From an uncultured Desulfobulbaceae bacterium (GTDB taxonomy: Bacteria; Desulfobacterota; Desulfobulbia; Desulfobulbales; BM004), in NCBI GenBank assembly GCA_947259115.1, contig CAMYKS010000031.1, positions 48,936 to 112,935 of the forward strand: 64,000 bases of DNA. Reading direction: 5' to 3'. The notes beneath the pieces are model-generated. The model was not told the DNA's origin. It saw only the letters and a program-made list of their open reading frames with translations, and did no database searches. Position numbers and translations under genes: made by a program. This document shows positions 46,239 through 64,000 of the stretch, in pieces (the first letter of the stretch is position 1; each line of letters begins with the position of its first letter).

Positions 46239-46437
46239 TGTTGGTATTTATTTTCATTCTACCTGTTCAAAACATTTTTTAAACGCCCCCTGAAAATTCC
46301 GGATTCCTGGAATGCGGAATTCGGTTTGCCGGAATTTTTCGCATACCCTCAAAGAACAGCTTCCATTTTGACAATAAATTTTTAATAACATGCTGAAATT
46401 TATTAATATAATTTATATTGCCCTTTAGTTTGATTTC

Positions 46438-46453
46438 TGGCACATTTATTGCT
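46438..46453 (+). promoter_or_regulatory. Sigma-54 (RpoN) promoter of the PEP-CTERM gene
   Basis: TGGCAC (46438-46443), five bases, then TTGCT (46449-46453) matches the -24/-12 consensus exactly, with GG and GC 12 bases apart. The predicted transcript start is near 46464, giving a leader of about 40 bases to the ATG at 46506. PEP-CTERM genes in other bacteria are controlled by the PrsK/PrsR system with RpoN, so this fits. No PrsR-like activator lies in the window. Confidence 0.85.
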
Positions 46454-46505
46454 TATTATTTATACTGATACGATGCATTGCGTCTTTAGCTCAATTTAGG
46501 ATATT

Positions 46506-47273
46506 ATGAAAAACAAAAATTTATTACCATTATTGATTGCCTCACTGATATTTGTAGCGGTCCCATCAGCCCTCCTGGCTGCTGTGAGCCCCCCAACATT
46601 CTATTTCAGTGTGATAAATAACGATCCTGCCCCTTCCCAAACCATCAAAGACGCTCTGAGCAGCCAGCTATATGTCGAAGTTATTGATGAAGGTGAATTT
46701 TCTGTAACATTCAGTTTTCATAATTATAATGAAACCGGAACAACTACTCCTATGGTAGTGACAAGTATCTATTTTGATGACGAACCTTTGCCTCATCTTC
46801 TTGATTATGCAAGTCCAACGATTACAAATTACACAGGAACTGATTATGTAATAAGCACTAAAACGAATGACGATCTGCCTGCCGGAAATCCAATAAATTT
46901 TGAGGCATCCGGTGCTTACGTCCCCGAGAACCCATCACCCACTTGGGGTATCAACGAGGAGGCATCTGATCATGAGGGCAACCCGGTTGAACAGCTCGAT
47001 ATTAGTTTTATGTATAAACCGATGGAAAATACCAACACTCTTTATAAATACGACGATTTAATTACCGCCCTTGAAAATGGCTCTGTGGATATTGGCATGC
47101 ATGTCCAGGCCATAGGAATTTACGGCGGCAACAGTTTATCGGTGCATCTCACCGGTGGCGGCGGACCAAGTCCCGCCCCGCTCCCTACTCCCGAACCCAC
47201 TACCATGCTGCTGCTTGGCACTGGTTTAGCAGGTATTGCAGGCGCAACACGAAGGCGCAAAAAACTGCAATAA
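46506..47273 (+). CDS. PEP-CTERM sorting-domain protein
   Basis: A 255-residue exported protein. The signal peptide is MKNKNLLPLLIASLIFVAVP (cleavage near LLAA). The mature Ser/Thr/Asn-rich region ends in a PEP-CTERM tail: PEP at 229-231, hydrophobic stretch (TMLLLGTGLAGIAGA) and basic RRRKK. Exosortase would cut the tail and release or anchor the protein on the surface, usually in a biofilm matrix. AGGAT precedes the ATG. It has a sigma-54 promoter, a good terminator, and TPR lipoprotein genes on both sides. Confidence 0.93.
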   Translation: MKNKNLLPLLIASLIFVAVPSALLAAVSPPTFYFSVINNDPAPSQTIKDALSSQLYVEVIDEGEFSVTFSFHNYNETGTTTPMVVTSIYFDDEPLPHLLDYASPTITNYTGTDYVISTKTNDDLPAGNPINFEASGAYVPENPSPTWGINEEASDHEGNPVEQLDISFMYKPMENTNTLYKYDDLITALENGSVDIGMHVQAIGIYGGNSLSVHLTGGGGPSPAPLPTPEPTTMLLLGTGLAGIAGATRRRKKLQ

Positions 47274-47595
47274 TAAATCTTCTCTTTCTCCATTCTCCGG
47301 GCAGGATCAATTGCTAATGATCCTGCCTCTCTTATTTGTGCTCAAAACACATTGTGTCTTTCCCGGCTCTCTGCGCTTGAAAAATTTCGCCCCCTGACCC
47401 TTTTAAAATCTTCGAGCCTTTTTCGAGCCTTTATTGTAATGGGGCAATATCTACCTTCCCTGCACTGTAGCAAAGCATCCGTTCAATTAATTTCTATTCT
47501 TATGCAAAAGAAAAATCTTTATAGTAAACTGATCATGGAATTTACCGAAAACATTCTAGAGTTCACTTAACTAAAATGAAAGGCTTTCACTGCTA
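47274..47595. other. Spacer between PEP-CTERM gene and second TPR gene
   Basis: It holds the terminator at 47300-47330. A 72-codon frame at 47352-47570 has no ribosome site and a composition unlike its neighbours, and I reject it. The last 100 bases are AT-rich and probably contain the promoter of the TPR gene; no sigma-54 site is visible there. Confidence 0.45.
47300..47330 (+). terminator. Strong terminator after the PEP-CTERM gene
   Basis: GGCAGGATCA (47300-47309) pairs perfectly with TGATCCTGCC (47318-47327), a 10-bp stem with an 8-base loop, followed by TCTCTTATTT. It separates the PEP-CTERM transcript from the TPR gene downstream. Confidence 0.75.
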
Positions 47596-49923
47596 ATGAA
47601 CATATTTAGATTTCTCCTCCACCGCATAAAAGCAGTGTCTGTATCAGCTCTAACGCTCATTCTCCTCTTTTCCCTATTGGGAGCAGCCGGCTGTACCAGA
47701 CCTGAGGACCTGGCCCCCGCCCATTATGACAAAGGGGTAAACCTTTTACAGGTTGGGGACTACAAGGCTGCAATTATTGAATTAAGAAATGCCTTGCAGC
47801 TTGATCCGCGTTTATCAGAGGCCCATTACCAGTTGGGCCTGGCGTATATAGGAATAGATGATGCAGTCAACGCCTACCGCCACCTGGAAATGGCATCCCA
47901 GGTTGATCCTTTAAATGTCGATGCCATAACCAAGGCTGCGGAAATGCTGTTCCAGGGCAATGAATTGGATGAAAGCCGAAAAAGACTGAAGAAAGCCCTG
48001 GACCTGGACCCTGACTACGTTAATGCATTGATACTTGCCGCGAACATGGAACTGCAGGCAAAACATTTGAATGAGGCCGAAACGTACATTGAAAAAGCCC
48101 ATAAACTTGATCCAGACCTCGACAGGGTATATTTGGCAAAAGCCAACATATATCTGGCCAAAAAAAACTATGACAATGCAGTGGAATCAATTGAAAAGGC
48201 CCTGGAAATAAATCCGAAAAATGAAGCGGCTTACAGAGCTCTGACAATTTATTGGATTGCCACCAACAACCTGAGTGAAGCGGAAAAGACTCTGCAGAAG
48301 ATGTTGGCAACTTTTCCAAATTCGCCACTGCCGCATCTTGAGATGGCTAAAATCCAGGAACTCAAAAACGATCTTACAGGGGCGGCCACAAGCCTCCAAA
48401 AAGCAATTGAAAAAGATCCACGGGACCCTGAAGTCCATGTCATAGAGGCACGGTTTTATGAAAAACATGGTGAACTGCAAAAAGCAGAGTCTTCTTTTGT
48501 AAAGGCCGTCAGCGTTGCCGCTAAACCCGATGATTACCGGGCAGTTCTGGCGGATCATTACTTCAACAGCAAAAAGTATGCTTTGGCCGGAGAACAGGTG
48601 GAACAGGTTATTGCTAAATATCCTGAGCATATGTACGCCAATTTCGTAAAAGCCAAACTTTTGCTTGAAAAAGAAGACAGCATTAATGAAGCAATTGCAC
48701 TGCTTGAAAAACTCGCGCTGCAAAACCCGCAATGGAGCGAAGTTTTATTTTACACGGCCAGGGCCTATTTCAAACTGCATGAAATTGACAGGGCCTTGAA
48801 CGCCATTGAAAAAGCGGTTGATCAAGCGCCCGGCAATCCGGACTACAGGTTGCTGCTGGCACATCTTTTATATAGTAAGGGAGAGTTTGAGCAGGCTTTG
48901 GTTGAAGTAAAAATTGCCTTAAGGATGAAGTCGGGCAGTTATGCTGCAGCAATTCTGTATGGAAAATTACTTTACATGACGGAGTCATACCCTCAGGCCC
49001 TGGAATTCTACAAAAATTTGGATAGTGTCAAACCAAATGATTTTGAGATACTGCAGTATCTTGGTCTCAGCCAAATGGCTGTGGAGGACTACGGCAATGC
49101 CAGGAAGACCCTGCAAAAAGCTGTTTCTGTAAACAAAGGCTATACTCTGGCCCTGGAAGCGTTGGTGAATATACTGATCGTACAAAACCATCAAACCAGG
49201 GCCATATCTCTCCTTGATGATCAGATCGAGGCAACCCCATTGTCACCAAAGTTATTATTACTCTACGGGACTTTGCTCTTTAATAATGGCAGGCTTGAAG
49301 AAGCGCTCACCGCATTTCGGCAGGTACAGGAAATAGCTCCCGATACCCCGTCGGCTTACATGATGGAAGCCATTATTTTAAAGCAGCTTGGAGACCTTGA
49401 TGCGGAAATTGCCAACCGCTATAGGGACCTTGCTCACAGTAAAAGTGTTGACCCTGCATCACAGATGGTTCTGGCCGGCCTCCTTGAAATAACAGGTAAC
49501 ACTGAAGGGGCAAAAGATTCGTACAGAAGGGTTCTGGAGCTCTCTCCCGGATTCCCTGCAGCAGCGAACAATCTCGCCTGGCTGCTGGCAAACGATGGCA
49601 ATCCGGATACTCTGGATGAGGCAATGAATCTGGCCCAGATTGCCAAAGAAAAAGATCCCACCGATCCATATATTACCGACACGCTAGGCTGGGTGCATTA
49701 CAAGCAGGGGCACTACTATGCCGCCGCCCTGGAATTCCGGCATGCAATTGCCAATTCGCCGACAACTGCCCAGTATTATTATCATCTGGCCCTGGCATTA
49801 GAGGGGCAGGACAAAAAGCAGGATGCATTGCGCGCGGTAAAAAAGAGTCTTGCTGCCGGTAAAGCATTTCAAGATAGGGATAAGGCAGAAGCATTGTATA
49901 AAAAGCTGAGGGCTGGCAATTAA
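47596..49923 (+). CDS. PEP-CTERM-system TPR-repeat lipoprotein (PrsT-type), second copy
   Basis: A 775-residue lipoprotein: hydrophobic segment (VSALTLILLFSLLGAAGC) with a lipobox ending at Cys33, then about 20 TPR units (IELRNALQLDPRLSEAHYQLGLAY to NNLAWLLANDGNPDTLDEAM, IAKEKDPTDPYITDTLGWVHYK, in part). It shares order and C-terminal wording with 43646-45928, so the two are paralogues around the PEP-CTERM gene. TIGR02917 proteins are thought to help assemble or export the polymer with which PEP-CTERM proteins associate. Confidence 0.9.
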   Translation: MNIFRFLLHRIKAVSVSALTLILLFSLLGAAGCTRPEDLAPAHYDKGVNLLQVGDYKAAIIELRNALQLDPRLSEAHYQLGLAYIGIDDAVNAYRHLEMASQVDPLNVDAITKAAEMLFQGNELDESRKRLKKALDLDPDYVNALILAANMELQAKHLNEAETYIEKAHKLDPDLDRVYLAKANIYLAKKNYDNAVESIEKALEINPKNEAAYRALTIYWIATNNLSEAEKTLQKMLATFPNSPLPHLEMAKIQELKNDLTGAATSLQKAIEKDPRDPEVHVIEARFYEKHGELQKAESSFVKAVSVAAKPDDYRAVLADHYFNSKKYALAGEQVEQVIAKYPEHMYANFVKAKLLLEKEDSINEAIALLEKLALQNPQWSEVLFYTARAYFKLHEIDRALNAIEKAVDQAPGNPDYRLLLAHLLYSKGEFEQALVEVKIALRMKSGSYAAAILYGKLLYMTESYPQALEFYKNLDSVKPNDFEILQYLGLSQMAVEDYGNARKTLQKAVSVNKGYTLALEALVNILIVQNHQTRAISLLDDQIEATPLSPKLLLLYGTLLFNNGRLEEALTAFRQVQEIAPDTPSAYMMEAIILKQLGDLDAEIANRYRDLAHSKSVDPASQMVLAGLLEITGNTEGAKDSYRRVLELSPGFPAAANNLAWLLANDGNPDTLDEAMNLAQIAKEKDPTDPYITDTLGWVHYKQGHYYAAALEFRHAIANSPTTAQYYYHLALALEGQDKKQDALRAVKKSLAAGKAFQDRDKAEALYKKLRAGN

Positions 49924-50061: not shown

Positions 50062-51948
50062 TTATGTTAGAAGCCGTCGCCACAACCCGAACATCATTAA
50101 ACCCCACAATGGTGTGCCATTGTTTTCCTGCATTTTTTGGTGCCTGTTCCATAATCCTTGAACATATTGTTTATTAAAATATTCGCTTAACCCGGACCCC
50201 GAAGCAAACAGGGCATCATGGGCCAACTCCTTGAGTTCGCCACGCAACCAGCTATCAAGGGGCACGCTGAATCCCTGCTTTTTACGATGGAGTATTTCAT
50301 GCGGCAGCCGGTCCCCATTCATTTTCTTTAGAATATATTTCGATTCACTCCCATGCAGTTTCAGGTTCGACGGCAGGCGGGCCGCATATTCCATCACCTT
50401 GTGATCCAGGATCGGCGCCCTCACCTCCAGTGAGTGCGCCATGCTCATGCGATCCACCTTGACCAGAATATCTTCCGGCAAATAACTTTTAATATCCACA
50501 TACTGCACCCGGGTCGTGGGATCAGGATTATGGTTTCTGGCAAAATGCGAAGTAATAAAATGCTGCGGACCAACACCATCGGTCTGGGCAGCAAAATCAG
50601 GTGTGTACAGGAGTCTTTTTGCCTCCGGTTTGAAATAAAAAGACATGTCCCGGAAGTAGGCCTGCTCATGTTGCAGAGAAAGATTGGTCAAAAACATTTT
50701 AAGCCTGAGGGGGCGCGGCATGAAATCCGCCCTGGGATATATGGAGGCCAATGGACCAAGAATTCCGCGGCGCAAAAAGTATGGAAGCAGCTTTCTGATA
50801 TTGCTTTCAAGCCGGTTCATGGAATAGCGCTGCACATATCCGGCAAAGGTTTCGTCACCGCCGTCTCCGGAGAGAGCCACCGTAACTTTCTGCCGGGCCA
50901 TTTTGGATACATACCAGGTAGGTAAAGCAGATGAATCGGCAAATGGTTCATCAAAATGCCACACCATCTTTTCAATTATATCCAGGGCATCCGGCCTGAC
51001 AACAAACTCCGTATGGTCGGTATGGTAGCGTTTTGCCACTACAGCTGCATATTCCAGTTCATTGAACCGCTTGTCATCAAAACCTATGGCAGCGGTCTTA
51101 ATTGGCGTACCACCCTGCAAAGACATGGAAGCTACGACTGCACTGGAATCCACGCCGCCGCTCAGGAACGCTCCCAGCGGGACATCGCTGATCATGCGCA
51201 GACGCACCGCTTCATCAAACACTTCCTGCAATTCTGCTACGGCCCTGCCCTCTTCAATGTTTTCAGGGGCATTGTTCATGTCAACATCCCAATACGCCTG
51301 CTGCGTAAATGTGCCCGGTGTGCAGACCGCCATGTGGGCCGGCTCCAACTTGCGAATCCCTTTAAATATACTCAGTGGTGAGGGCACGTAACCAAGGCTG
51401 CAATAAGCATCCAGGGCGTTCGGGTCAATTTCCCTTGGAATCGAAGGGTCGGCCAGCAGGGCTTTCAGCTCCGAGCCGAAGACCAGCCTGTTATCGTTGC
51501 TGAAGTAGTATAAAGGTTTTTTGCCGACCCGGTCGCGGATCAGCAGCAGCTTGCGCTTGTTTGCGTCCCACAGAGCTATGGCAAACATGCCGCGCAGACG
51601 CGCAACAAAATGTTCACCCCATTGCCGATAGCCATGCAGCAATACCTCGGTATCACTTTTAGTACGAAACAGATGGCCGCAACTTTCCAGCTCTTTTCGC
51701 AGTTCAAGAAAATTGTAAATCTCACCATTGAACACCACGTGCAGAACACCATCATCTGTGGACATGGGCTGTTCGCCGGTATGCAGATCGATAATGGCCA
51801 GGCGCCGGTGCCCCAGGCCGATGGAGTTGTCAATATAAATACCACTGCCATCGGGACCGCGATGGATCATGGTATTATTCATGCGCCCCAGCAAATTTCG
51901 ATCTACCGGTGCACCGTTCCTGTTATAGATTCCGCAGATGCCGCACAT
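50062..51948 (-). CDS. asnB: Asparagine synthetase-type amidotransferase, exosortase-A associated
   Basis: A 628-residue two-domain enzyme. The N-terminal Ntn glutaminase starts with the nucleophile Cys2 (MCGICGIYNR), with HRGPDGSG and the NGEIYN loop. The C-terminal ATP-pyrophosphatase synthetase domain has LGAFLSGGVDSSAVVASM and ALSGDGGDETFAGY. The C-terminal part (MAHSLEVRAPILDHKVMEYA, KKQGFSVPLDSW) and length fit the XrtA-system amidotransferase subgroup (TIGR03108), which probably amidates a uronic acid or similar sugar. It is the last gene of the long minus-strand cluster. Confidence 0.9.
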   Translation of the reverse strand: MCGICGIYNRNGAPVDRNLLGRMNNTMIHRGPDGSGIYIDNSIGLGHRRLAIIDLHTGEQPMSTDDGVLHVVFNGEIYNFLELRKELESCGHLFRTKSDTEVLLHGYRQWGEHFVARLRGMFAIALWDANKRKLLLIRDRVGKKPLYYFSNDNRLVFGSELKALLADPSIPREIDPNALDAYCSLGYVPSPLSIFKGIRKLEPAHMAVCTPGTFTQQAYWDVDMNNAPENIEEGRAVAELQEVFDEAVRLRMISDVPLGAFLSGGVDSSAVVASMSLQGGTPIKTAAIGFDDKRFNELEYAAVVAKRYHTDHTEFVVRPDALDIIEKMVWHFDEPFADSSALPTWYVSKMARQKVTVALSGDGGDETFAGYVQRYSMNRLESNIRKLLPYFLRRGILGPLASIYPRADFMPRPLRLKMFLTNLSLQHEQAYFRDMSFYFKPEAKRLLYTPDFAAQTDGVGPQHFITSHFARNHNPDPTTRVQYVDIKSYLPEDILVKVDRMSMAHSLEVRAPILDHKVMEYAARLPSNLKLHGSESKYILKKMNGDRLPHEILHRKKQGFSVPLDSWLRGELKELAHDALFASGSGLSEYFNKQYVQGLWNRHQKMQENNGTPLWGLMMFGLWRRLLT

Positions 51949-51979
51949 GGTATTTTATTTATAAAAAAATGGAAGACTC

Positions 51980-53098
51980 TCAGGCAAGGGGTTCATACAG
52001 TTTCTCATAGCTCTGCACCATAGACCTGACAGTAAATCTTTCCTCGAACTTCATTCTCGCTTTCACACCCATATCATGACGTTTCTTTTTGTCACGGATC
52101 AACTCTGAAATAGCAGCAGCAAGTTCATCTGAATCATCACTCCGGATTATTATGCCGTCAGTATTATCTTGAATAATCTCAGGAATGCCGCCAACACTTG
52201 TTGCCACGATTGGTTTTCCTGCAGCCATGGCTTCCAGGATGGTCAGGGGCAGTCCTTCACTGAGAGAACACAGAACAAAAATGTCAAGCACTGAAAGGAG
52301 CCGTGGGATATCATTCCTGGTTCCAAGAAAGAGTATATTGTTCTGCAGTTGTTCTTCAGAGACAAGCTCTTCAAGCTCCTGCCGCAAGGTGCCGTCACCT
52401 ATTACTATCAGGACAACATTTGGATAAAGGGCTGAAACCTTTTTCATGGCTTTAATCAGGCATCTATGGTTCTTGATGGGATCCAGTCGCGCCACTATAC
52501 CGATTATTTTTGCTGCCGCCGATATGTTCAATTCCCTGGTAATCTCTTGACGATCAAACTCAGTGGTGAATGGTTCACCGTCTATACCGTTGTAAATTGT
52601 CGTAATAATTTTGGGATCTATCCATTCTTTATGCACCAAGTTCAGTTTGAGGAATTCCGCCACCACCACTATCCGGTCAGTCAGGTATGAGAGGATTTTA
52701 TCCATTATCCTGACTTTAATATTCGGGGCAACGTCCCGCGCATGCTCCGTATAAATGATGCGCCCTACCCCGGCTATCTTCCCTGCCAGGACACCGTAAA
52801 AAAATGCTGTCGAGTTATGGAGGTGGATAATATCAATTTTATCTTTCTTCAGCAACGCTGCAAGCTTGAAGGGGTAGAAAAGATCTATGCCCGGCTTCCT
52901 TTTGAGCAAGGTGGTTTTTGTGTCGTTAAGGAGATTGTTATGCAGCTCGCCAAGTGTATCAAAACAACAGACGGAAGGGAGGAATTTCTTCCTGTTCAAT
53001 TGATTCACCAAGGCCACAACCATGTATTCCAACCCTCCCACATCGAGCCCCTGGACCAGGTGCAGGACTTTACAGGGATTTCTCACTTCTGCAGTCAT
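51980..53098 (-). CDS. Glycosyltransferase family 4
   Basis: A 372-residue GT-B enzyme. The N-terminal acceptor domain has VLHLVQGLDVGGLEYMVVAL, as in the PEP-CTERM-associated sugar transferase group (TIGR03088). The C-terminal GT1 donor domain has IGIVARLDPIKNH and CSLSEGLPLTILEAMAAGKPIVATSVGGIPEII with the E-x7-E. It transfers an unknown sugar during polymer synthesis at the cytoplasmic side. Its ATG overlaps the stop of the O-ligase gene (TGATG), so the two are coupled. Confidence 0.9.
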   Translation of the reverse strand: MTAEVRNPCKVLHLVQGLDVGGLEYMVVALVNQLNRKKFLPSVCCFDTLGELHNNLLNDTKTTLLKRKPGIDLFYPFKLAALLKKDKIDIIHLHNSTAFFYGVLAGKIAGVGRIIYTEHARDVAPNIKVRIMDKILSYLTDRIVVVAEFLKLNLVHKEWIDPKIITTIYNGIDGEPFTTEFDRQEITRELNISAAAKIIGIVARLDPIKNHRCLIKAMKKVSALYPNVVLIVIGDGTLRQELEELVSEEQLQNNILFLGTRNDIPRLLSVLDIFVLCSLSEGLPLTILEAMAAGKPIVATSVGGIPEIIQDNTDGIIIRSDDSDELAAAISELIRDKKKRHDMGVKARMKFEERFTVRSMVQSYEKLYEPLA

Positions 53099-54369
53099 CA
53101 GGCCGGCAACTCGCCCTGATTGATCTTTTCTAATTCCCTTTGTGCAAAAACCTTTACAAGCACCCCTATGATCACCAGGTGGTAGAACAGGTCGAAATAG
53201 GCACGGCCGAGAAATACTCCTCCTGCCATATACGCCAAAATGCTTACCTGGATCATGTCGGCATAGTTGCAGATCCAGCTGCAGCTCTTGATGTTTTTAA
53301 ATTGCCGTTTAAGTTTCTGCATGGATGCGAGAGTTGAGAGCAGGAGAGCCATAAAGAAACCGAATGCGATAAATCCATGTTCTTGCAGCACCTCAAAATA
53401 TATGCTGTGAACATCACCGGCCATTATTGCGCCGGGATATGGCATATATTTTATCCTGTAAACGGTCAGGTAAGTATCAAAACCTCCTCCGGTCAGGGGT
53501 CTGTCCTTAGCAATATTCCAGGCCATTTTCCAGGCATTGATCCTACCCATTGCAGAAGCATCTTCTTCAAATGTTTCTATTGTTTCCATTCGGTCAAACC
53601 ACTTGTCAGCTATGAAAAATGGAGCGCTGAAAATAGCTGCAGCAACAAGAATACCGGCAATAAATCGTCTTTGGGATTTCAACAGGAGTAAAATAACAAC
53701 AACTGCCAGGGCGAGAAAGCCGCCGCGTCGGAAAGTAAAAATAACTGAAATTATACTGCCCAGAAAACAGGCATAAAGTGAAAACTTCAGCCATTTTTTA
53801 CTTTCGTTTCTGGCCTGAAAAAACAAAAGCGGCAGAGTCATGTTTAAGGCAAGGGCAAAATCCCCCTCCCCACCTATGAAAGAATTATCCGGCCCCCTGA
53901 CATTATGCACTCCACCTGTGAGTATGGTAAAAATGGCGCCCTTCAGGCCGAGTAGGCCCAGGGAAAATGCTATGACCAGAACCAGGTAGCGCAGCTTGTC
54001 TTTATTATTGATCAGAGGAAGCGTTATAAGCGCCATTAACAGAACTTTAGAGGTCTTTTGCCACATCAACCATGATACAGAAGGATTGAAAGCGGTAAAT
54101 GATGTTATAGTAAACAATATCCAAAGAATAAGGATGAACACCGTTTCCCTTTCCATGTGAAACTTGTCCTTGTCCTCGGTGAACAGGTACCCTGCAAGGA
54201 CAGCGATTGCAACTATCTGGGCAAATGGAAAATCTGTTGCAGCTCCCCAGGAAAACTTGTGTGGATTCATGTAGCCCAGCCATGAGAAAGTCAGGATTCC
54301 TATCCATGGCTGAGTGAAACAAATGGGCAGGAGACTGAATACAATTATAAATAAAATGGTGGCGCGCAT
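53098..54369 (-). CDS. O-antigen-ligase-like membrane protein, exosortase-A system associated
   Basis: A 423-residue integral membrane protein with about ten predicted helices. The N-terminal region (TQPWIGILTFSWLGYMNPHK) is typical of putative O-glycosylation ligases tied to exosortase A (TIGR03097/DUF5935). The Wzy_C loop includes GRINAWKMAWNIAKDRPLTGGGF and VHSIYFEVLQEHGF. It probably joins lipid-linked glycan to protein or to growing polymer in the periplasm. It overlaps the GT4 gene by one base. Confidence 0.9.
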   Translation of the reverse strand: MRATILFIIVFSLLPICFTQPWIGILTFSWLGYMNPHKFSWGAATDFPFAQIVAIAVLAGYLFTEDKDKFHMERETVFILILWILFTITSFTAFNPSVSWLMWQKTSKVLLMALITLPLINNKDKLRYLVLVIAFSLGLLGLKGAIFTILTGGVHNVRGPDNSFIGGEGDFALALNMTLPLLFFQARNESKKWLKFSLYACFLGSIISVIFTFRRGGFLALAVVVILLLLKSQRRFIAGILVAAAIFSAPFFIADKWFDRMETIETFEEDASAMGRINAWKMAWNIAKDRPLTGGGFDTYLTVYRIKYMPYPGAIMAGDVHSIYFEVLQEHGFIAFGFFMALLLSTLASMQKLKRQFKNIKSCSWICNYADMIQVSILAYMAGGVFLGRAYFDLFYHLVIIGVLVKVFAQRELEKINQGELPA

Positions 54370-54456
54370 AGTAGTTTATTTGAGATTCCTTATTTTATTG
54401 TACGGAGAATTCATTATACTTTTTTTGAAGAAATTCTATTTTTTGCTTGTTCTCTG

Positions 54457-55413
54457 TTAGCCATCCGCGCTGTTCCCGTACCCCATGCCTTCCATTATTC
54501 CGCTGATTATCGGCATTATCCTTTCAATGCGCTCCCTGTTCTCCTCCTTCCATTTGTCCAGACGCGGCCGGGAGAATGCATTATAGGGTTTTGCAGAAAG
54601 GTTTTCACAATGTTTCCGAATTTCATCCGTATAGCTCATATCTAATTGGGTAAATGCCCTGCGGAATGTTTCTACGGGCTTATTCAGGAGATCTTCGTAG
54701 ACTATTTCCACCCACTGGTCTGCCGGTATTATTTTCTTAGCGTTCAAAACCGCCCTGTTTGCCTCGATCCATTGTACCGCGCATACCTCCTCAATAGATT
54801 TTGAGGTAAAATCCCGCCAACCGCTGAAAAGGAAGAAACACCAGCGGTTGTACCTGCCGTTGTCAATTTCCACCCTGGCCGGCAGATCGTGCGACCAGGC
54901 GCCGTATTCATCCGGGCGTCCCCAGCCGTGGATCATGGAATTTATATTGTCCCTGCCGTCACGTCTAATGAAGACGAAAAAGGCATTGGGAAACATGGCG
55001 TGCAGATAGGGTATCCTGAAGCAGTTCTGATTGGCCTTGTCCAGGAATCTTTTTGCACCAAGATAGCGGTAGAAAAATTTCGGCACCTCCCGCCTATCCT
55101 TCCCGGTAACATCTTTTTCGGTGAGAATGTGGGAATTCCAGTTATTTTCCTCCATAGGGTGTAGCATATTCCAAAAATCATGGGATTCCTTGCGCATGGT
55201 AGCCAGTTCCGGCGCCATTCCAAGAACATTATAAACCGCCGTGGTGCCGGACCGTGAACAACCTACCACAAATACCGGGCGCTTAAATTCCGGTTGCAGC
55301 AGCGGGTATACCAGATCCCGCCAACGCCACAAAAGCCTTTTCCCATAATAAGCAAGGGTCTTTCGCACCTTCACCATGAAAGTCGCATTATCTCTTGATT
55401 CTTGTTTACTCAT
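54457..55413 (-). CDS. PAPS-dependent sulfotransferase
   Basis: A 318-residue cytoplasmic sulfotransferase. The 5'-phosphosulfate loop is GCSRSGTT (51-58) and the 3'-phosphate site is in FFVFIRRDGRDNINSMIHG. Both match the Sulfotransfer_3-like fold. It would sulfate a sugar of the surface polymer with PAPS from the APS-kinase gene at the window end. Its start overlaps the preceding GT2 gene by 8 bases, so they are coupled. Confidence 0.88.
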   Translation of the reverse strand: MSKQESRDNATFMVKVRKTLAYYGKRLLWRWRDLVYPLLQPEFKRPVFVVGCSRSGTTAVYNVLGMAPELATMRKESHDFWNMLHPMEENNWNSHILTEKDVTGKDRREVPKFFYRYLGAKRFLDKANQNCFRIPYLHAMFPNAFFVFIRRDGRDNINSMIHGWGRPDEYGAWSHDLPARVEIDNGRYNRWCFFLFSGWRDFTSKSIEEVCAVQWIEANRAVLNAKKIIPADQWVEIVYEDLLNKPVETFRRAFTQLDMSYTDEIRKHCENLSAKPYNAFSRPRLDKWKEENRERIERIMPIISGIMEGMGYGNSADG

Positions 55414-56344
55414 TCCGGTGCCCTTTTTTATGCCCTTGTATTTCCCCCATAACGGAGGCCAGCTTTACAAGATAATAACGCCGGGCAGACTGCTGGAGAC
55501 AAAAGATTGATTTCAACAGATGTGCGGCAGCCATCCTGTAAAAATACCGAGGGATGGCACCTGAAGATATTTTGTCACTCAGTTGGTACGCCGCCATTGA
55601 TCGGTAATAGGCCTTTTTGATCAAATAATTGAGGGTTAATTTATTCTTATCCACATGATGGTACTGCAGAATTTCAGGTATATACATGAGACGTTCCCCA
55701 TGTTTGAGTGCCCGCCTGATAAATTCGAGATCCTCCCCTCCCTGCAGGTTATGCCCTTTAGGGCCGAACTCTTCACTGAAAAGGCCGACATTCTTAAAAA
55801 CAGACCTTTTTATGACCAGGTTCCCGGCGCCGGGAATGAACATCCCCTTGTCAAGCTGAACTTCAAGAACACTGTCTCCCATATTAAAATTCGGAATCGG
55901 AAACGGACGTATAGGGTACCTGGTGTCATCATGAATCCACGGGGGTTCTGTCCCGTCCCAGTTCGGCGTTATCCTGCCGCAGAAAATATTACAATCGGGA
56001 TAGTTCGCCGCCGCAGAGCGGATCGCCTTGAAATAGCCGGGACTGACAATATGGTCGTCATCAACAAATGCCAGCAAGTCTCCTGCAGCGTTATTGATAG
56101 CGGTATTCAAGGCAAAGGTCTTACCCTGTTTCGGTTCTTTCAAGGGGTGTATTTTGAATTTGCTCTTTTTGACGTGCTCGGTGATCACCTGGAAAGAATT
56201 GTCGCTACAGGCATTATCGACAATTACCAATTCAATCTCTATATTTTCCGGCATTTCCGTCTTCTCGAGTGAATTCAGAACTTCGGGAAGTAGAAAGGCC
56301 CGATTATGGGTGCAGATTATTACTGAAATATCGATGGATGACAT
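55406..56344 (-). CDS. Glycosyltransferase family 2
   Basis: A 312-residue GT-A enzyme starting SVIICTHNRAFLLPEVLNSL, with the nucleotide-sugar DxD-type motif in LLAFVDDDHIVSPGYF and GGEDLEFIRRALKHG near the acceptor site. Its substrate is unknown. It sits between another GT2 gene (27 bp upstream) and a sulfotransferase (8-base overlap downstream). Confidence 0.9.
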   Translation of the reverse strand: MSSIDISVIICTHNRAFLLPEVLNSLEKTEMPENIEIELVIVDNACSDNSFQVITEHVKKSKFKIHPLKEPKQGKTFALNTAINNAAGDLLAFVDDDHIVSPGYFKAIRSAAANYPDCNIFCGRITPNWDGTEPPWIHDDTRYPIRPFPIPNFNMGDSVLEVQLDKGMFIPGAGNLVIKRSVFKNVGLFSEEFGPKGHNLQGGEDLEFIRRALKHGERLMYIPEILQYHHVDKNKLTLNYLIKKAYYRSMAAYQLSDKISSGAIPRYFYRMAAAHLLKSIFCLQQSARRYYLVKLASVMGEIQGHKKGHRNE

Positions 56345-56371
56345 CAGGACGTTATAAATGTATATAGTATG

Positions 56372-57274
56372 TTATTTCTTCAGTGAATAAATATCTCTTC
56401 TTCCCCTGATGAATCCAATGATCCACCAGACATTCATTTGCATTCTCATTGTCGGTTTTAAGATATACTTAACTGTACTTCTGAAAAGCTGAGGAAAAAT
56501 AAATAACGGGATGCCATATACTGTCCGCTTGTATTCAACAGATTCATTCAGTGCTTTTTGCTCACCAGCCCTGAAATGAAGCTTCCTGAAATATTGTTTC
56601 TGCAATTTTTCCGGCCCAATAACATGATAGACGATTGCTGCAGGTATATACATCCCTTTGCCACCTGAAGCGAGAAACCGGGTAAAGAGTTCATACTCAT
56701 CACCACCAAAATCTTTGTTCCCCGTCCTTCCATAGTTCGGATTAAAGTAGCCTGTCTTGGCAAAGAAATCCCTGGCAAATACCATATTGCCCCCAAACGG
56801 GTAACGCACGTTATCAAAATTTATCTCTTCGTCCCCGTAATCAAGGTAGCCAAGGAACCCCCATAGTTCCTTACTTAACCACCCTGGAAGTTCTTTATCA
56901 GTCTTCAGAAATATTTTTCCGCCAACGCACTCGCAGCCATATTTCACAAGACCCTGATGTAAAGACGCAACCCAATTTTTTCCTGCTATGGCATCATCAT
57001 CTGTAAAAGCAACATACTTTCCCTTTGATTCGACTATCCCACGGTTTCTTGCATGGGATAAACCTTGTTTTTCTTCAGTAAAATATTTCACCGGGATAGG
57101 TGTTTTTAATTCAAAACCTTTAACAACATCTTTTGTATCATCTACCGAGTTATTGTCTATAACCACTATTTCCCATAGCAGTTCTTCAGAAACTTCCTGT
57201 TCAACAAGGCTGTTCAGTATATTGTTCAGATGCCTACTTCTGTTATATGTACATATAACGACACTGATATCCAT
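56372..57274 (-). CDS. Glycosyltransferase family 2
   Basis: A 300-residue GT-A enzyme with SVVICTYNRSRHLNNILNSL, KYVAFTDDDAIAGKNWV (DxD-type) and GGDEYELFTRFLASGGK. It is paralogous to the GT2 at 55406. AGGA lies just before the ATG, overlapping the end of a 34-codon fragment upstream. It begins the tightly packed six-gene minus-strand run that ends with asnB. Confidence 0.9.
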   Translation of the reverse strand: MDISVVICTYNRSRHLNNILNSLVEQEVSEELLWEIVVIDNNSVDDTKDVVKGFELKTPIPVKYFTEEKQGLSHARNRGIVESKGKYVAFTDDDAIAGKNWVASLHQGLVKYGCECVGGKIFLKTDKELPGWLSKELWGFLGYLDYGDEEINFDNVRYPFGGNMVFARDFFAKTGYFNPNYGRTGNKDFGGDEYELFTRFLASGGKGMYIPAAIVYHVIGPEKLQKQYFRKLHFRAGEQKALNESVEYKRTVYGIPLFIFPQLFRSTVKYILKPTMRMQMNVWWIIGFIRGRRDIYSLKK

Positions 57275-57283
57275 TGGAGTCCT

Positions 57284-57388
57284 TTATGCTGGCTTAATTT
57301 CTGTCTTAAATTTGCAGAACGAGTTATCCGCCAGCTCCATATCCCGGTGTTTCTGGACCCATTCATACTGTTCATAACCGAATGTCAT
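57284..57388 (-). pseudogene. Short coding remnant upstream of GT2
   Basis: A 34-residue frame (MTFGYEQYEWVQKHRDMELA...) with protein-like composition ends 9 bases before the GT2 start and carries that gene's ribosome site. It has no ribosome site of its own and looks like the 3' end of a deleted cluster gene. The family is not recognised. Confidence 0.35.
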
Positions 57389-57777
57389 ATCTACATTAGC
57401 TCATTGAGAAAATGAGTTTCTGGCGAAACGGGTACATTGCTGTGACTGTCGCACGCAAAGACAAGGAGCGTAGTTCCAGACCTGTAGGCTCCTATAAAAA
57501 AAACATGGCAGGTAAAGAGTGGATGCTTCATTGTCTATGGTCATGACTCAATCCCATTACGGTTGGAAAGCGGGCTGATTATCCGTAAAATCCTATTGAC
57601 TATACGAGCTGGTAAATTCAGAAACATTATCAATAGGCGATAATTTTTTTAAGATGATTTTCCATCATGTATCTTTAATCCCCTTGACTCTATTCCAATA
57701 AAACAAAATGCCAGTATCAGGCAGCTTACCATCACATTGTTTTTAAGTAAAAATCTTAGCCTAAATGATCAACCGTA
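57389..57777. other. 389-bp gap in the polysaccharide cluster
   Basis: Beyond the fragment at 57284-57388 there is only a 45-codon plus-strand frame at 57412-57549 (MSFWRNGYIAVTVARKD...) without ribosome site. The rest is AT-rich. I suspect deletion debris between two gene blocks rather than function. Confidence 0.35.
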
Positions 57778-58536
57778 TCATTCTTCTAAAAACCTCTCAT
57801 ATTGACCACCCGCAAGAGCATCCCGAACTTCGTCATAATTCTCGATCAGCATATTTAATTCCCCGGGATTTTGCTTAACGGTTCTTGGCTCTATTTTCTC
57901 AGTCTGATTTATGTCGACACCAAGAAATTCAAAAATATTTTGCAGTGAACTCTTGCGATTTAACACAATTTGCTCATGGCTGACATTGAGGTATTGAAAC
58001 TCCTGAGCCAAGGTATCTATTTGACAATCAATAGATTCCAAACAATTAATAGACCGTTTAAGATCGTCCAGATCTAACGTGATACTAATCTGTCGCCCCC
58101 TGTAGTTGCTTGAACTCCAACGAGATTCTTTATTTGCAATCTTTGAGGAAAGATATCTTCTGAGCAAATTATGCCTGGTTAACCTTATTATTTTGAATTC
58201 ATTAATTTTCCAGTGGTCCCGAAAATTTGGATATCTCTCGAACTGTCCCGGGTACATAATTTTATATCCGACAGCCTGGGGATCACCTGTAGTTTGAATC
58301 GTACAGATGTCATTAAGAAAGTTTTCTATGCTGTAATCTCTTAAATACTTATGAGATAAGCGCCTCAGAAAAGATTTATTAACCCATTTTAAATACCCTT
58401 TTCCGTAGGCGGGATTAAAAATTTCTCCAAAGCACGTTATTTGGGGATGCTCATTCAGCATTGCTTTTAACATGTTGCTGCCACAGCGAGCATAACTCAG
58501 CATAATAAATTTTTGCACTTCTTTCGATTGTGACAT
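57778..58536 (-). CDS. Stf0/NodH-like sulfotransferase
   Basis: A 252-residue sulfotransferase. The PAPS 5'-loop is SYARCGSNML (about 14-23), followed by the C-x-GE-x-FNP segment common to Stf0-type enzymes. Later, FKIIRLTRHNLLRRYLS matches the 3'-phosphate-binding helix. It would sulfate a glycan or glycolipid. The start is uncertain: the frame runs to ATG 58599 and TTG 58602, but family members begin close to the PAPS loop, so ATG 58536 is used. No ribosome site decides it. Low GC compared with its neighbours suggests later acquisition. Confidence 0.8.
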   Translation of the reverse strand: MSQSKEVQKFIMLSYARCGSNMLKAMLNEHPQITCFGEIFNPAYGKGYLKWVNKSFLRRLSHKYLRDYSIENFLNDICTIQTTGDPQAVGYKIMYPGQFERYPNFRDHWKINEFKIIRLTRHNLLRRYLSSKIANKESRWSSSNYRGRQISITLDLDDLKRSINCLESIDCQIDTLAQEFQYLNVSHEQIVLNRKSSLQNIFEFLGVDINQTEKIEPRTVKQNPGELNMLIENYDEVRDALAGGQYERFLEE

Positions 58537-58687
58537 TAATGTTAACTCATCATCTGTTAAGTTTGTATGACACCAAAAGGACACCCAATAGATCTTCATC
58601 AATATAAAATGATTAAGCTAAAATTGGTAAAAACAGCTTAGTAGCATTTCGTGATCAGCATCCGGTTTTCAGTTAAGTTTATTCATT

Positions 58688-59485
58688 TTACTGATGTTGG
58701 TTCCCAGCAATTCGACTGACAACCCGAGATGCATAATATTTCAAGGGCTGGAAAACGCTTGCTTCATTAGTGCCAAACTTAAGTTTTTGTTTTACTTTCC
58801 ATAATGAATCATTGCCGAAGATTTCAATGCGTCTGAGTTTAAGCATATCAGTACTGCTGTTGTTAAATCCGGAACGCGTGGTACATGCAGATTTAAATCC
58901 TGCTTCTTTAACAAGTTTTACAACTTGCTCATTTAACAACCCATAAGGGTAAGCAAAGTGCTTCACTTCTGCACCTAAATTCTCCTCAATAATCGCTTTG
59001 GACTCGGAGATTTCCTTGCGAGCCGTGTCCCGGCCAATTTCTGGAAGGCAAACATGATTTAATGTGTGCGCCCCAAAACCAACGAGATCTTGCATTTGCT
59101 TAATTTGATACCAGGATAAAAGCTTGCGCTCGGGAAATCCCCGGGAACTCATCCAAGAGTTTTTTTCGCCCAACATACCGGCAGTTAGGAATATTGTAGA
59201 TGGGATGGAATATTTTTGTAATATTGGATAGCCGTTGATAAAATTATCCTCAAACCCGTCATCAATCGTTATCACAACGCTATTTTCAGGTAACGGAATA
59301 CGTTGTATATGATGCGTAACTATATCGTCAAGTGAAACTGCATTGCAGTTTTGTCGAATAAACCGCATATGTTTCTCAAATAACCCTGGAGTACAGGCGT
59401 ATTTTATTTCTGAGTCACTGCGCGGTGTTGAAATCATATGGTACATAAGTATAAGAAAACGGTTTTCAGCCATTTCACTGACCAT
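58688..59485 (-). CDS. Polysaccharide deacetylase (NodB domain)
   Basis: A 265-residue cytoplasmic-looking CE4 enzyme without a clear signal peptide. Motifs are LILMYHMIS, VVITIDDGFEDNF (catalytic Asp pair), FGAHTLNHVCL (metal His) and KHFAYPYGLLNE. It would remove an acetyl group from a precursor or the polymer. Its start overlaps the GT2 gene upstream by 11 bases, so it is coupled to it. Confidence 0.88.
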   Translation of the reverse strand: MVSEMAENRFLILMYHMISTPRSDSEIKYACTPGLFEKHMRFIRQNCNAVSLDDIVTHHIQRIPLPENSVVITIDDGFEDNFINGYPILQKYSIPSTIFLTAGMLGEKNSWMSSRGFPERKLLSWYQIKQMQDLVGFGAHTLNHVCLPEIGRDTARKEISESKAIIEENLGAEVKHFAYPYGLLNEQVVKLVKEAGFKSACTTRSGFNNSSTDMLKLRRIEIFGNDSLWKVKQKLKFGTNEASVFQPLKYYASRVVSRIAGNQHQ

Positions 59486-60410
59486 CCGAATTATTCAAAA
59501 GACGAAAATAGATTTTTTCCGGCAGTAATGATGGAAGTATATATTTTAATTCTCCAGGTTTCCAGTAACCGCTCCAAAGCAAAACACGGAACAGCTTTTG
59601 AGCTGAAACCAAATCCCGCTGCCAGTATGCTTCAAATGCTTTTTCATATAAAAATTGATGCCGCAACCTGCGTCTGGTGGTTTTATTTATATGTTTGACG
59701 CACCCGGGGTTGTTATGAATAAAGTCTCGGCGTACTCGCCAGGAATCGAGAACTTGACGCCATTTGACAGCAGAAATTTGCCCGGTGTCGTGCCAACGGT
59801 AATAAGCCAGTACCCTTCCGACCTGAACAATGTTATGCGTGACTGCAGATAAACGCAGCCACAGGTCGTAATCCATAGAGGTAAAATAGCGCTCTGAAAA
59901 TCCACCTACGCGTTCAAGGACAGAACGTCGGGTCAGAGCGGCATGGATTGGCCATGGGCAATTGCTGAGAAAAGCTTCACTGATGTCACCTTCTTCATAG
60001 ACTGGCGGGATATATGGCTCAGTGCCCTTTTGGCGGCCGACATTCTGCCAGCCGCAATATGCAATATCAGCTCGCTGTTTTTCGATAACGTCTGCTAGGC
60101 TGCTCAAACAGTCTTTTTCCCAGTAATCATCAGCATCAAGAAATGCGATGAAGTTACCTTTAGCCTGCTTTAAACCCAAGTTGCGCGCCGGGTAAGGTCC
60201 CTGGTTTTCCTGTGTAAAAAATTTTATTTGCTGGGGATATCTTGCCGCTAGACTTTCAAGGACTTGCGGGCTGTCATCATCGGACCCGTCATCAACCACG
60301 ATAAGTTCAACCGACACATGCTTTTGTTCGAGTACGGATTGTACAGCTTGTTCAACAAATTCACGGGCATTATAACAAGGCATAATAACGGATATCAGTT
60401 GAGTATCCAT
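59475..60410 (-). CDS. Glycosyltransferase family 2
   Basis: A 311-residue GT-A enzyme: ISVIMPCYNAREFVEQAVQS, VVDDGSDDDSPQVLE, the donor-site NFIAFLDADDYWEKD and the W-rich block TSMDYDLWLRLSA. The closest pattern is the large bacterial GT2 group that adds hexoses to lipid-linked precursors. It is coupled to the deacetylase gene by an 11-base overlap. Confidence 0.9.
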   Translation of the reverse strand: MDTQLISVIMPCYNAREFVEQAVQSVLEQKHVSVELIVVDDGSDDDSPQVLESLAARYPQQIKFFTQENQGPYPARNLGLKQAKGNFIAFLDADDYWEKDCLSSLADVIEKQRADIAYCGWQNVGRQKGTEPYIPPVYEEGDISEAFLSNCPWPIHAALTRRSVLERVGGFSERYFTSMDYDLWLRLSAVTHNIVQVGRVLAYYRWHDTGQISAVKWRQVLDSWRVRRDFIHNNPGCVKHINKTTRRRLRHQFLYEKAFEAYWQRDLVSAQKLFRVLLWSGYWKPGELKYILPSLLPEKIYFRLLNNSDGQ

Positions 60411-60800: not shown

Positions 60801-62144
60801 TTATACTATGGCAATACAACTATTTGTAAATGATTTTTTATTGTAGGTAAGGTCTTGTTTTGTATCACAATCCTTAACTTTCAGGCCAACTGCTCCAGCG
60901 ATTGCATGGGCTGCAGCAGTCTGCCACTCCATTGACTTTTCAATAGTCTTCATAGGCTCCGACTTCCCATCTGCAATGCTACACATCAATAAGGCCGTGT
61001 TAGTAACATTTCCAACATTTTTTCTCTGCCTATGCGATGCACCCTGCATGTTAAATTGCATCTCAGATGACTCAAAACTGCCTGTTTTAATTTGTTTAAG
61101 CTGCCGAAGTTCCGCCCCGGATTCACTGCAAAACGCCCCTTTGCCCAAAGTCCCGTAGAAAAGGGTACCAGTCAATGGGGCATGCACGACTCCCATATAG
61201 GGTTTATTATCCTCAATGAGCGCAATGTTTATCGTAAAGTTATTATCACCGGCTAAAAACGCCTCTTCATTTTCAAGGGGGTCTACCAGCCAGAAGTGGT
61301 TCAACTTGCGGCGCTCCAAGAAAGGTATGTCAGGGCTATGTGGAGATATCACAGGAATAGTTGGGCTGATGGCGGTCAGTCCGTCCACTATCCTTCTATA
61401 GGCTTGGATTGCCGCTAAATTCTGCGGGTTGTTACATATTGTATAACGACACCTGGCCAGGATTGATGAAAAAAATGAAGTTCCGGGGGACTTTTTCCTC
61501 GGCAAAAGATTCTTATTGCCATGTTTAACACAATAAGCTGTTAATAACTCCTCACCTGCATGACGTGCAATAGCAACAATGTCCTGGATGTCCATCCACC
61601 TGATCTGCGTCACGTTGGCTTTTGGAAAAGCAATATCGGGTATTGGTTTGTCAAGAAAAGGACAGAGTTTCTCCCAGCCATCACCTGCTATAATATCAAG
61701 AATCAGGAGGTCATGCGGCCTGTTCTGGAAATAATCAAGCACTGAATCGACAAATTTGTTATAGCCTTTTTTGAAAAGCTGCTCATCGAACACACTACAA
61801 CCGTATAAGTCCATGAATAGCTCTTTATGTGCTTCATTCTGCTTGTCATCAAGCTTTTGGGTGAATTGTTTTTTGCATGACTTCAGCCAACCGTTTGTTT
61901 CTCTGACAGTTAAAATGAATTTAGAATTGGGATACTCCCTATCCAATTCTTTATAAAAACTTGGAATCGGGGTGTCGGTAAAGGCGTCGTATTCAGCCAT
62001 AACCTTCCTGTCAATAGAGTTCAGGTCCCCGCGAGCATAGGTTTCAATACCCAGGTAATCCTTTGTCCTGCAGCCCAACAACTCAAGGGCACGGGCAAGG
62101 CTTGATGTTCCTGTTTTTGAAAGTCCGATTCCAAAAATCTTCAT
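60801..62144 (-). CDS. Sulfotransferase fused to a degenerate CysQ (PAP phosphatase-like) domain
   Basis: A 447-residue fusion. Residues 1-about 185 form a PAPS sulfotransferase (Sulfotransfer_4-like), with GLSKTGTSSLARAL (7-20) as the 5'-phosphosulfate loop and FILTVRETNGWLKSC for the 3' site. Residues about 190-447 align by eye with CysQ, the 3'(2'),5'-bisphosphate nucleotidase (FWLVDPL, FTINIALIEDNKPYMGVVHAP, YNKKSFTNSCIAI). Its metal-site residues are changed: EE becomes PH in PVISPHS (264-270), DPLDGT becomes DPLENE (288-293) and WDTAA becomes WQTAA (407-411). It may therefore sense or hold PAP rather than hydrolyse it. The gene is divergent from the APS-kinase gene. Confidence 0.82.
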   Translation of the reverse strand: MKIFGIGLSKTGTSSLARALELLGCRTKDYLGIETYARGDLNSIDRKVMAEYDAFTDTPIPSFYKELDREYPNSKFILTVRETNGWLKSCKKQFTQKLDDKQNEAHKELFMDLYGCSVFDEQLFKKGYNKFVDSVLDYFQNRPHDLLILDIIAGDGWEKLCPFLDKPIPDIAFPKANVTQIRWMDIQDIVAIARHAGEELLTAYCVKHGNKNLLPRKKSPGTSFFSSILARCRYTICNNPQNLAAIQAYRRIVDGLTAISPTIPVISPHSPDIPFLERRKLNHFWLVDPLENEEAFLAGDNNFTINIALIEDNKPYMGVVHAPLTGTLFYGTLGKGAFCSESGAELRQLKQIKTGSFESSEMQFNMQGASHRQRKNVGNVTNTALLMCSIADGKSEPMKTIEKSMEWQTAAAHAIAGAVGLKVKDCDTKQDLTYNKKSFTNSCIAIV

Positions 62145-62529
62145 GTATTTTTTTTAGTAGATAATGAATAACTTATAAGTTGGTAATGGGGGGGGGGCGA
62201 TAACTAATCATATTCAGATCATTTGCAAAAATCGGGGGCAGCCATATTTAAGCTCCCCAAAATCTTACATTTATAATTAATCATTGGATGCACTGTCAAT
62301 CAAAAACAAGTTGCTCATTGAACTGCAACAAATGAATTTTTATATTATGGGCAAAATTCTCTAAAGGTTTTATGTAGTCTCTCAGTATATGCAGCAGCAG
62401 AGAAAGCTCTGCCAGGATTTCATATAACTAGTTTTATATTTCAAATAAATGATATAAATTAACATCCGGTTATCGTTTCAAATTTTTTTTTATTTTTAAA
62501 AACATATTTTACCAGGAGAAAAATCACAG
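62145..62529. other. 385-bp divergent promoter region
   Basis: It holds the G10 tract at 62188-62197 and otherwise AT-rich sequence. It must carry promoters for both the sulfotransferase-CysQ fusion (leftward) and the APS-kinase gene (rightward). No further gene or clear hairpin is seen. Confidence 0.5.
62188..62197. repeat. Homopolymer of ten G residues
   Basis: An uninterrupted G10 (C10 on the coding strand of the leftward gene) lies 44-53 bases before the start codon of the sulfotransferase-CysQ fusion, in a promoter-like position. Such tracts slip during replication and can switch gene expression in other bacteria; here that is only a possibility. Confidence 0.7.
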
Positions 62530-64000
62530 ATGGGACATCTTATTGAGCCGCATGGAGGAAAGCTGGTTAATCTCTATTGTCCGCAAGATTTGGCTGACAG
62601 TCTCAAAAAGCAATCGATAAATTATTTTTCAATAGATCTGACCCCAAGACAACTTTTTGACCTGGAGCTTATTTTGAACGGGGGGTTTTCTCCCCTGCAG
62701 GGCTTCATGACCCAGGCGGAATACGAATCTGTTGTGGATAAAGAAGTTTTGCCCAATGGGCTGTGCTGGCCTATTCCGGTATATCTGGATATTTCGGAGG
62801 AAACGGCAAAGAATATCAGCCTTGAACAACCCATCGCCCTGCGGGATATGGAGGGTTTCCTGCTTGCCATAATCACTGTATCCGATATATGGCAGCCCGA
62901 TAAGCTCAAGGAGGCCAGGCAGATCTACGGGACGGAAAGCACCATTCATCCCAGCGTCGAAGAAATGTTGGATTCGGACAAGACGTATTGCCTCGGGGGC
63001 AAGCTTATCGGACTGGAGCAGCCGGTGCATTATGATTATAAAATGCTGCGCCTGAATCCTGTTGACAGCAGGGCCTTTTTTCAGCGCATGGGCTGGCGGC
63101 GCATCATGGCCTTTGATACTTACAAGCCGCTGCATAGTGCCCATAAGGAAATGGCGCTTCTGGCCGCACGGCAAAACAAGGTCAATATATTCATGCATCC
63201 CATTGTCGGGTTGACCCATCCTGGCGACATCGATCATTATGCCAGGGTGCGCTGCTTTGAGGCGATCATGAAAACATTCCCCGATGATTCGGTCATCTTT
63301 GGCTTGCTTCCCCTGGCAATGCGGATGGCCGGCCCTAAGGAGGCTCTCTGGCATGCAATAATCAGAAAAAACTACGGCTGCACCCATTTCATGGTATCTG
63401 CCGACCATGCCGACCCCTTTGCCTCTACAGGGCGTGATCTTTTTTATGCGTCCGGTGCTGCCCAGGAATATGTAGCCAAGCACGAGGATGCCACCGGGGT
63501 CAAAATGGTTGCCTTTAAAAAAATGGTCTATTTGCCCAACAAGGTTCAATATGTTCCTGTTGACCAGTGCAGCGAGGACGAAATGCAGTCCCTTGAACTT
63601 TCTGCCACCGAACTCAGAAGAAGACTTGCCTTCAACCTTGACATCCCGACCTGGTTTTCCCCTCCAGAGGTTGTCAAGGTGTTGAAAAAGGCATATCCTC
63701 CAAGATGCAGACAGGGATTGACCATTTTCCTGACCGGATTGTCAGGGTCCGGCAAATCAACCATTGCCAAGGTGCTGATGAGCCGGTTTATGCAGATGGG
63801 TGACCGACCTGTTACCCTGCTGGATGGAGATATTGTCCGCAGGAACTTGTCCAGCGAGCTCGGATTTTCCAAAAGAGATCGCGAGTTGAACATCATCCGC
63901 ATCGGCTTTGTGGCCAGTGAGATCACTAAGAACGGTGGTGTGGCTATCTGTGCACCGATAGCAGCCATAGCCAAATCCCGGCTCCATAATCGTCTGTTGA
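62530..64000 (+). CDS. cysC: APS kinase with degenerate N-terminal ATP-sulfurylase domain (3' end outside window)
   Basis: 490 codons without a stop run off the window. Residues about 1-390 align by eye with the sulfate adenylyltransferase of bifunctional Sat/CysC enzymes (LTPRQLFDLELILNGGFSPL, MHPIVG, LPLAMRMAGPKEALWHAIIR, ELRRRL). Its active-site motifs are altered: QTRNPxHxxH reads DTYKPLHSAH (196-205), and GRDHAG reads SADHAD (290-295), losing both key Arg. From about 398 the APS kinase is intact: P-loop GLSGSGKST (403-411), LLDGDIVRRNLSSELGFS, GGVAICAPIA. It would make PAPS for the nearby sulfotransferases. AGGAG lies about 12 bases before the ATG. Confidence 0.88.
   Translation, partial: MGHLIEPHGGKLVNLYCPQDLADSLKKQSINYFSIDLTPRQLFDLELILNGGFSPLQGFMTQAEYESVVDKEVLPNGLCWPIPVYLDISEETAKNISLEQPIALRDMEGFLLAIITVSDIWQPDKLKEARQIYGTESTIHPSVEEMLDSDKTYCLGGKLIGLEQPVHYDYKMLRLNPVDSRAFFQRMGWRRIMAFDTYKPLHSAHKEMALLAARQNKVNIFMHPIVGLTHPGDIDHYARVRCFEAIMKTFPDDSVIFGLLPLAMRMAGPKEALWHAIIRKNYGCTHFMVSADHADPFASTGRDLFYASGAAQEYVAKHEDATGVKMVAFKKMVYLPNKVQYVPVDQCSEDEMQSLELSATELRRRLAFNLDIPTWFSPPEVVKVLKKAYPPRCRQGLTIFLTGLSGSGKSTIAKVLMSRFMQMGDRPVTLLDGDIVRRNLSSELGFSKRDRELNIIRIGFVASEITKNGGVAICAPIAAIAKSRLHNRLL

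Follow-up and report, generated by a model that had tools for sequence, protein, structure and literature searches.

This locus raises the question of why two neighbouring genes, whose predicted products make and use PAPS, each join an apparently active domain to one that seems to have lost its function. In the window, i.e., the whole 64,000-nucleotide stretch of Desulfobulbaceae DNA that was analysed, gene A (60801..62144, minus strand, 447 aa, ATG start) encodes a fusion of a sulfotransferase with a degenerate CysQ domain, and gene B (62530..64000, plus strand, continuing for 245 bp past the window, 571 aa; L003:3466-5181) encodes a Sat-like domain followed by an APS kinase. The genes are adjacent and divergent, with 385 bp between their start codons, and motif losses in the CysQ and Sat domains suggest that each gene pairs an active domain with a likely pseudoenzyme, as the original prediction had it. 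That prediction went on to propose that the two degenerate domains form a nucleotide-sensing control layer on polymer sulfation, in a layout for which it knew of no described system.

Profile searches divide gene A into two parts. The first, residues 1-180 (61605..62144, minus strand), is a Sulfotransfer_4 domain, matched by PF17784 over residues 2-179 at 117.8 bits against a cut-off of 22.8. Across 17 family members, the motif K10-T11-G12-T13, residues R81/S89 and D57 of TDTP are invariant or nearly so; we take K10-T11-G12-T13 and R81/S89 to bind PAPS and D57 to be the catalytic residue. The second part, approximately residues 182-447 (60804..61601, minus strand), was assigned as a CysQ-fold pseudo-phosphatase domain by profile, alignment and superposition, with residues 245-438 matching Inositol_P. 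The AlphaFold model of gene A has a pLDDT of 84.5, and its residues 178-447 superpose on the CysQ structure 3b8b (Z 27.1, rmsd 3.6, 232 residues aligned); per this predicted model, the IMPase/CysQ fold is retained in the C-terminal half. The Foldseek and VIA rows for gene A were taken up by the CysQ half and are uninformative on the sulfotransferase half. The C-terminal half thus shares its fold and many structural residues with CysQ, the 3'(2'),5'-bisphosphate nucleotidase (TIGR01331; 3b8b, 5djh), whereas its signature sites are all broken, its score falls below the TIGR01331 cut-off (136.6 vs 228.8 bits) and it is fused to a sulfotransferase.

For the residue check, the CysQ part of 17 gene A family members was aligned with 18 intact CysQs taken from the phylum survey. 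Gene A has lost the expected catalytic residues, with the D of TxAD replaced by A, SEE by SPH (E to P; residues 267-269, 61338..61346), DPLDGT by DPLENE (DGT to ENE; residues 288-293, 61266..61283) and WDTA by WQTA (D to Q; residues 407-410, 60915..60926), all on the minus strand. The T and D of TxAD, the first E of SEE and the D of WDTA are invariant in the intact CysQs and kept in none of the family members (0/17 each), and at the DPLDGT site the first D is kept in 16/17, the second D in 8/17 and the T in 2/17. Nowhere did a fused CysQ turn up with its residues intact. Judging from these losses, the CysQ-derived domain is predicted to be catalytically dead. R278, W285, L309, G318, W407 and N435 are conserved in all 17 members, and the invariant residues of the CysQ part (e.g., R278, W285, G318, W407 and N435) are of structural kinds.

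In nearly every member, the residues expected to hold PAP are missing, as are the metal ligands: the SRSH histidine is kept in 1/17, the GSSLK lysine in 1/17 and the YxR arginine in 2/17. In yeast Hal2p complexes PAP is presumably held by the H, S, K and R positions that are missing here, and PAP binding is therefore probably gone, like catalysis. Y434-N435 and D288 are mostly kept in the family, and given these some residual ligand binding by the CysQ part may persist. These losses bear directly on the proposed sensing module, in which the dead CysQ would bind PAP and throttle the sulfotransferase, the dead Sat would bind APS or PAPS and control the kinase, and the two would act jointly. In its favour are the placement of pseudo-domains on both the PAPS-making and the PAPS-using enzyme, the occurrence of Sat-CysC in half of the other gene A genomes, and a reverse case, the fungal ATP sulfurylase, in which a dead kinase domain is the PAPS site. 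Nevertheless, with the SRSH, GSSLK and YxR residues and the metal ligands gone in most of the 17 members, with broken Sat motifs that include the would-be sulfate- and nucleotide-holding residues, and with genes A and B not adjacent elsewhere, we consider such sensing very unlikely.

Relatives of gene A were sought by a scan of 84,980 species genomes, which yielded 16 full-length relatives from Thiobacillus, Burkholderiales, several Gammaproteobacteria (including Methylomicrobium and Chromatiaceae) and Desulfacinum, a span of Beta-/Gammaproteobacteria and Desulfobacterota, i.e., two phyla. The dead CysQ is present in all 16, which lie in related polysaccharide clusters. Identity to the window protein is 56-72% in the sulfotransferase part and 26-35% in the CysQ part, which is the faster-evolving of the two; where dS is not saturated, i.e., in two pairs, dN/dS of the CysQ part is 0.32 against 0.20 for the sulfotransferase part, and 0.73 against 0.29. 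Such strong divergence and weak constraint, with dN/dS of up to 0.73, would suit a decaying passenger, brought in by fusion with a once active PAP phosphatase and now disappearing through neutral drift. However, the dN/dS of the CysQ part is below 1 in 5/5 pairs, purifying selection on it persists, and the domain keeps its full length, fold and invariant residues across 17 members and two phyla, with no truncated domain seen except at contig ends, all of which makes passive decay distinctly unlikely. A dead metabolic enzyme that has long been kept on a live one is a good case for learning what pseudoenzymes do.

The window protein does not cluster with the Desulfacinum members, which suggests a separate acquisition, and no plasmid-borne copies of the fusion reached 80% query coverage. 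The loci of the relatives have glycosyltransferases, a deacetylase and other sulfotransferases in common with the window. In one relative's cluster an intact CysQ lies about 5 kb from the gene A-type fusion, so that the fused domain is not simply the PAP phosphatase, and a full-scoring CysQ is found elsewhere in 10 of the 18 carrier-genome entries (two of which are the same D. infernum genome). Searches of the open-licence literature found no description of the gene A family, none of CysQ, a sulfotransferase and a fusion in an exopolysaccharide context, and none of a link between an exosortase and a sulfotransferase; the family is apparently undescribed, with its dead CysQ apparently a new part. 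The family, with its two-phylum span, sits in polymer-sulfation clusters, of which little is known in XrtA-type systems. As a separate observation, a Phycisphaeraceae MAG (L087:9974-11581) has a Sulfotransfer_4-like domain joined to a C-terminus that is glycosyltransferase-like, as assigned by eye, and not CysQ.

On the other side of the divergent pair, profile searches assigned PUA_2, ATP-sulfurylase and APS_kinase domains to gene B, which passes the PRK05537/NF004040 cut-off for a bifunctional Sat/APS kinase (812 vs 669 bits). The PUA_2 and ATP-sulfurylase-like region (approximately residues 1-390, 62530..63699, plus strand) has broken active-site motifs. In the alignment, DTYKPLHSAH (63115..63144, plus strand) stands where active ATP sulfurylases have QTRNPxHRAH, and SADHAD (63397..63414, plus strand) where they have GRDHAG; of a working site (QxRN, HxxH, GRDHA), only HxxH is kept. 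The APS kinase (CysC) domain begins at residue 394 (63709..64000, plus strand, running beyond the window end), and its P-loop, GLSGSGKST, is intact. Going by these motifs, the ATP-sulfurylase-like domain is probably inactive and the APS kinase domain probably live.

With broken Sat-like motifs and an intact kinase P-loop, gene B fits the type of Thiobacillus denitrificans Tbd_0210 (PDB 3cr8), a two-domain APS kinase reported to be without ATP sulfurylase activity (Gay, Segel and Fisher 2009, PMID 19770499). Both have an N-terminal ATP-sulfurylase-like domain and a C-terminal APS kinase and can be aligned over nearly their whole length, but the broken residues differ (QARQPMHRAQ/GGEHQP in 3cr8 vs DTYKPLHSAH/SADHAD in gene B), and the Thiobacillus and window Sat-CysC proteins fall in separate tree clades. 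No paper that names the T. denitrificans locus and describes this arrangement was found in the open-licence literature. A dead Sat-like domain on an APS kinase is also found in Entamoeba histolytica, where the protein without it is less stable and has a kcat about 100-fold lower, a figure that aggregation may affect (PMC13213808). The Entamoeba enzyme is, however, very distant, its Sat-like domain being without a substrate loop and having a short linker, where gene B instead has point losses in its motifs. The claimed novelty of the layout thus does not extend to the gene B half, a dead Sat on an APS kinase having been solved in both T. denitrificans and Entamoeba, and apparently stands for the gene A family. 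The comparison with 3cr8 also bears on whether Sat and CysQ might both still be active with altered active sites. The window proteins retain HxxH in Sat and D288 in CysQ, but several independent catalytic residues are lost in each domain, in CysQ those of TxAD (T and D), SEE (first E) and WDTA (D) in 17/17 members, and 3cr8, with different losses, is reported to lack Sat activity; surviving activity is in our view extremely improbable.

In all, 33 Sat-CysC fusions were collected from 297 genomes of the phylum together with the genomes that bear the fusion, and six active-site residues were scored in each. At least one of the six is missing in 29 of the 33, and four are intact. Another Sat is present in all 29 genomes with a broken motif, while the three genomes without another Sat all have an intact motif; the remaining intact fusion (G242) has a second Sat in its genome. 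This is suggestive of the pattern expected if a spare Sat is free to decay. That an intact Sat goes with being the sole Sat has a value of 4/5456 if genomes count as independent, but the intact fusions come from roughly one clade, so that the association is not an independent statistical test, and as a tree-based test it fails, with two independent pairs. On a Sat-CysC tree built without the motif columns, individual active-site residues change between 4 and 10 times, except H201, which never changes, and the losses differ by clade: the Desulfacinum group has lost only the second histidine of the six scored residues, and the window protein the QRN and GR residues. The closest relatives of the window gene B (G029, G066, G181 and G228) are broken too, and the loss of function in the window Sat is therefore probably older than the gene arrangement seen today. 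Most Sat-CysC fusions in these lineages are probably mislabelled when annotated as "bifunctional sulfate adenylyltransferase/adenylylsulfate kinase", a point of consequence when sulfur metabolism is reconstructed from genomes. The Sat-CysC of Thiobacillus 65-29 (L134) has a 664 aa frame with seemingly an extra part-copy of the Sat-like domain and overlapping Sat matches.

Do the two fusions belong together? Outside this strain, Sat-CysC occurs in 8 of the 16 other gene A carrier genomes, in line with the expectation that the two architectures would co-occur, and the Sat motifs are broken in 7 of these 8. The fusion is found in 26 of the 297 phylum genomes, although the carriers come mostly from other phyla and the comparison of 8/16 with 26/297 is not a matched test. 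Co-occurrence lends a module little weight in any case, since an APS kinase is required wherever a PAPS-dependent sulfotransferase operates, and most carriers that lack Sat-CysC have CysNC-like or stand-alone CysC matches. The idea of a two-gene module finds no backing in the other gene A loci, whose flanks, covered to at most 10 kb on either side, contain no Sat-CysC, and adjacency as a conserved unit was rejected, being seen in no other gene A locus. On a 95-kb contig of an Ectothiorhodospiraceae MAG (G302 contig C1) both fusions are present about 44 kb apart, and the Sat-CysC there has an intact Sat motif and is the only Sat found in that genome. In five Desulfobacterota genomes (L149, L152, L157, L158 and L162) a stand-alone, intact-looking CysQ lies beside Sat-CysC, and an APS kinase close to a CysQ relative is thus in itself a commonplace combination of PAPS supply and PAP removal.

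The source genome has AprA and a separate second Sat. PF01507 (CysH/CysD; covers PAPS reductase) has no match in its 91%-complete assembly, so PAPS appears to have no visible use except sulfation. The source genome holds no intact CysQ, its sole other IMPase-fold gene being SuhB-like, and an NrnA-like DHH-DHHA1 gene adjoins truB. NrnA is established as a pAp phosphatase, a role for which CysQ is the alternative enzyme, and sulfotransferases are inhibited by pAp (PMC8268124). Profile matches place a polysaccharide cluster with XrtA/PEP-CTERM-associated genes at 50062..60410 (minus strand), which holds an amidotransferase, GT4, the O-ligase TIGR03097, GT2s, a deacetylase and two more sulfotransferases (54457-55413 and 57778-58602). 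The XrtA/PEP-CTERM-associated families PrsT, PEP-CTERM and TIGR03097 are present (TIGR02917 399.7/312.2; TIGR02595 25.1/16; TIGR03097 454.5/188.1); a motif scan of contig C31 found no exosortase A gene. At 43646-49923, a short PEP-CTERM protein (46506-47273) sits between two long PrsT-kind TPR proteins, on opposite strands. Clusters for sulfated capsules in Cobetia and Vibrio likewise have PAPS-making genes beside sulfotransferase and glycosyltransferase genes (PMC11766843, PMC11641403), but they use CysND with CysC or CysNC, unlike the window, and the Cobetia cluster also holds cysQ, annotated as a separate, functional gene. The link of both genes to polymer sulfation, as originally predicted, is supported.

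The reading that we hold to be probable is that gene B supplies PAPS with its Sat as a scaffold and gene A uses it, with its CysQ in a structural or docking role, for exopolysaccharide sulfation. APS would come from the separate Sat of this AprA-bearing organism, and gene B would be a single-activity APS kinase whose kinase domain turns APS into PAPS solely for sulfation, with the dead Sat domain retained as a scaffold for assembly and activation, as in T. denitrificans and Entamoeba. Gene A would be a PAPS-dependent sulfotransferase that moves sulfate to the exopolysaccharide. Its CysQ-derived domain would not hydrolyse PAP, would probably not bind it, and would persist as a folded structural, dimerisation or partner-docking domain, and PAP clearance would fall to a different enzyme, for which the NrnA-like protein is the likeliest candidate. 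The sequences themselves show the domain make-up, the motif losses, the conserved fusion, the cluster context and the lack of a detected PAPS reductase; the enzyme activities and scaffold roles here, like the choice of the PAP-clearing enzyme, are what we infer. SuhB, also of the IMPase fold, acts in the rrn antitermination complex (PDB 6tqn) and offers a precedent, by analogy only, for action through protein contacts, though unlike the CysQ part of gene A it is not fused to a sulfotransferase. A bolder version, which we think unlikely while giving it some chance, has the former PAP phosphatase as a regulatory or docking domain in a conserved pseudoenzyme family, tethering the sulfotransferase to a partner (e.g., the APS kinase, the glycosyltransferase machinery or an intact CysQ) and thereby channelling PAPS and PAP in exopolysaccharide sulfation.

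Lastly, the intergenic region between the start codons (62145..62529, 385 bp) contains no inverted repeats, and promoter matches in it are at or below chance; as such, a shared operator for the two genes was rejected. A G10 tract lies in this region at 62188..62197, 44-53 bp ahead of the gene A start codon, and is not conserved upstream of the gene A relatives. It is the only G or C run of at least 9 in the approximately 190 kb of the genome that was read, with about 0.04 expected per 64 kb, and could be a slipping, phase-variable tract.
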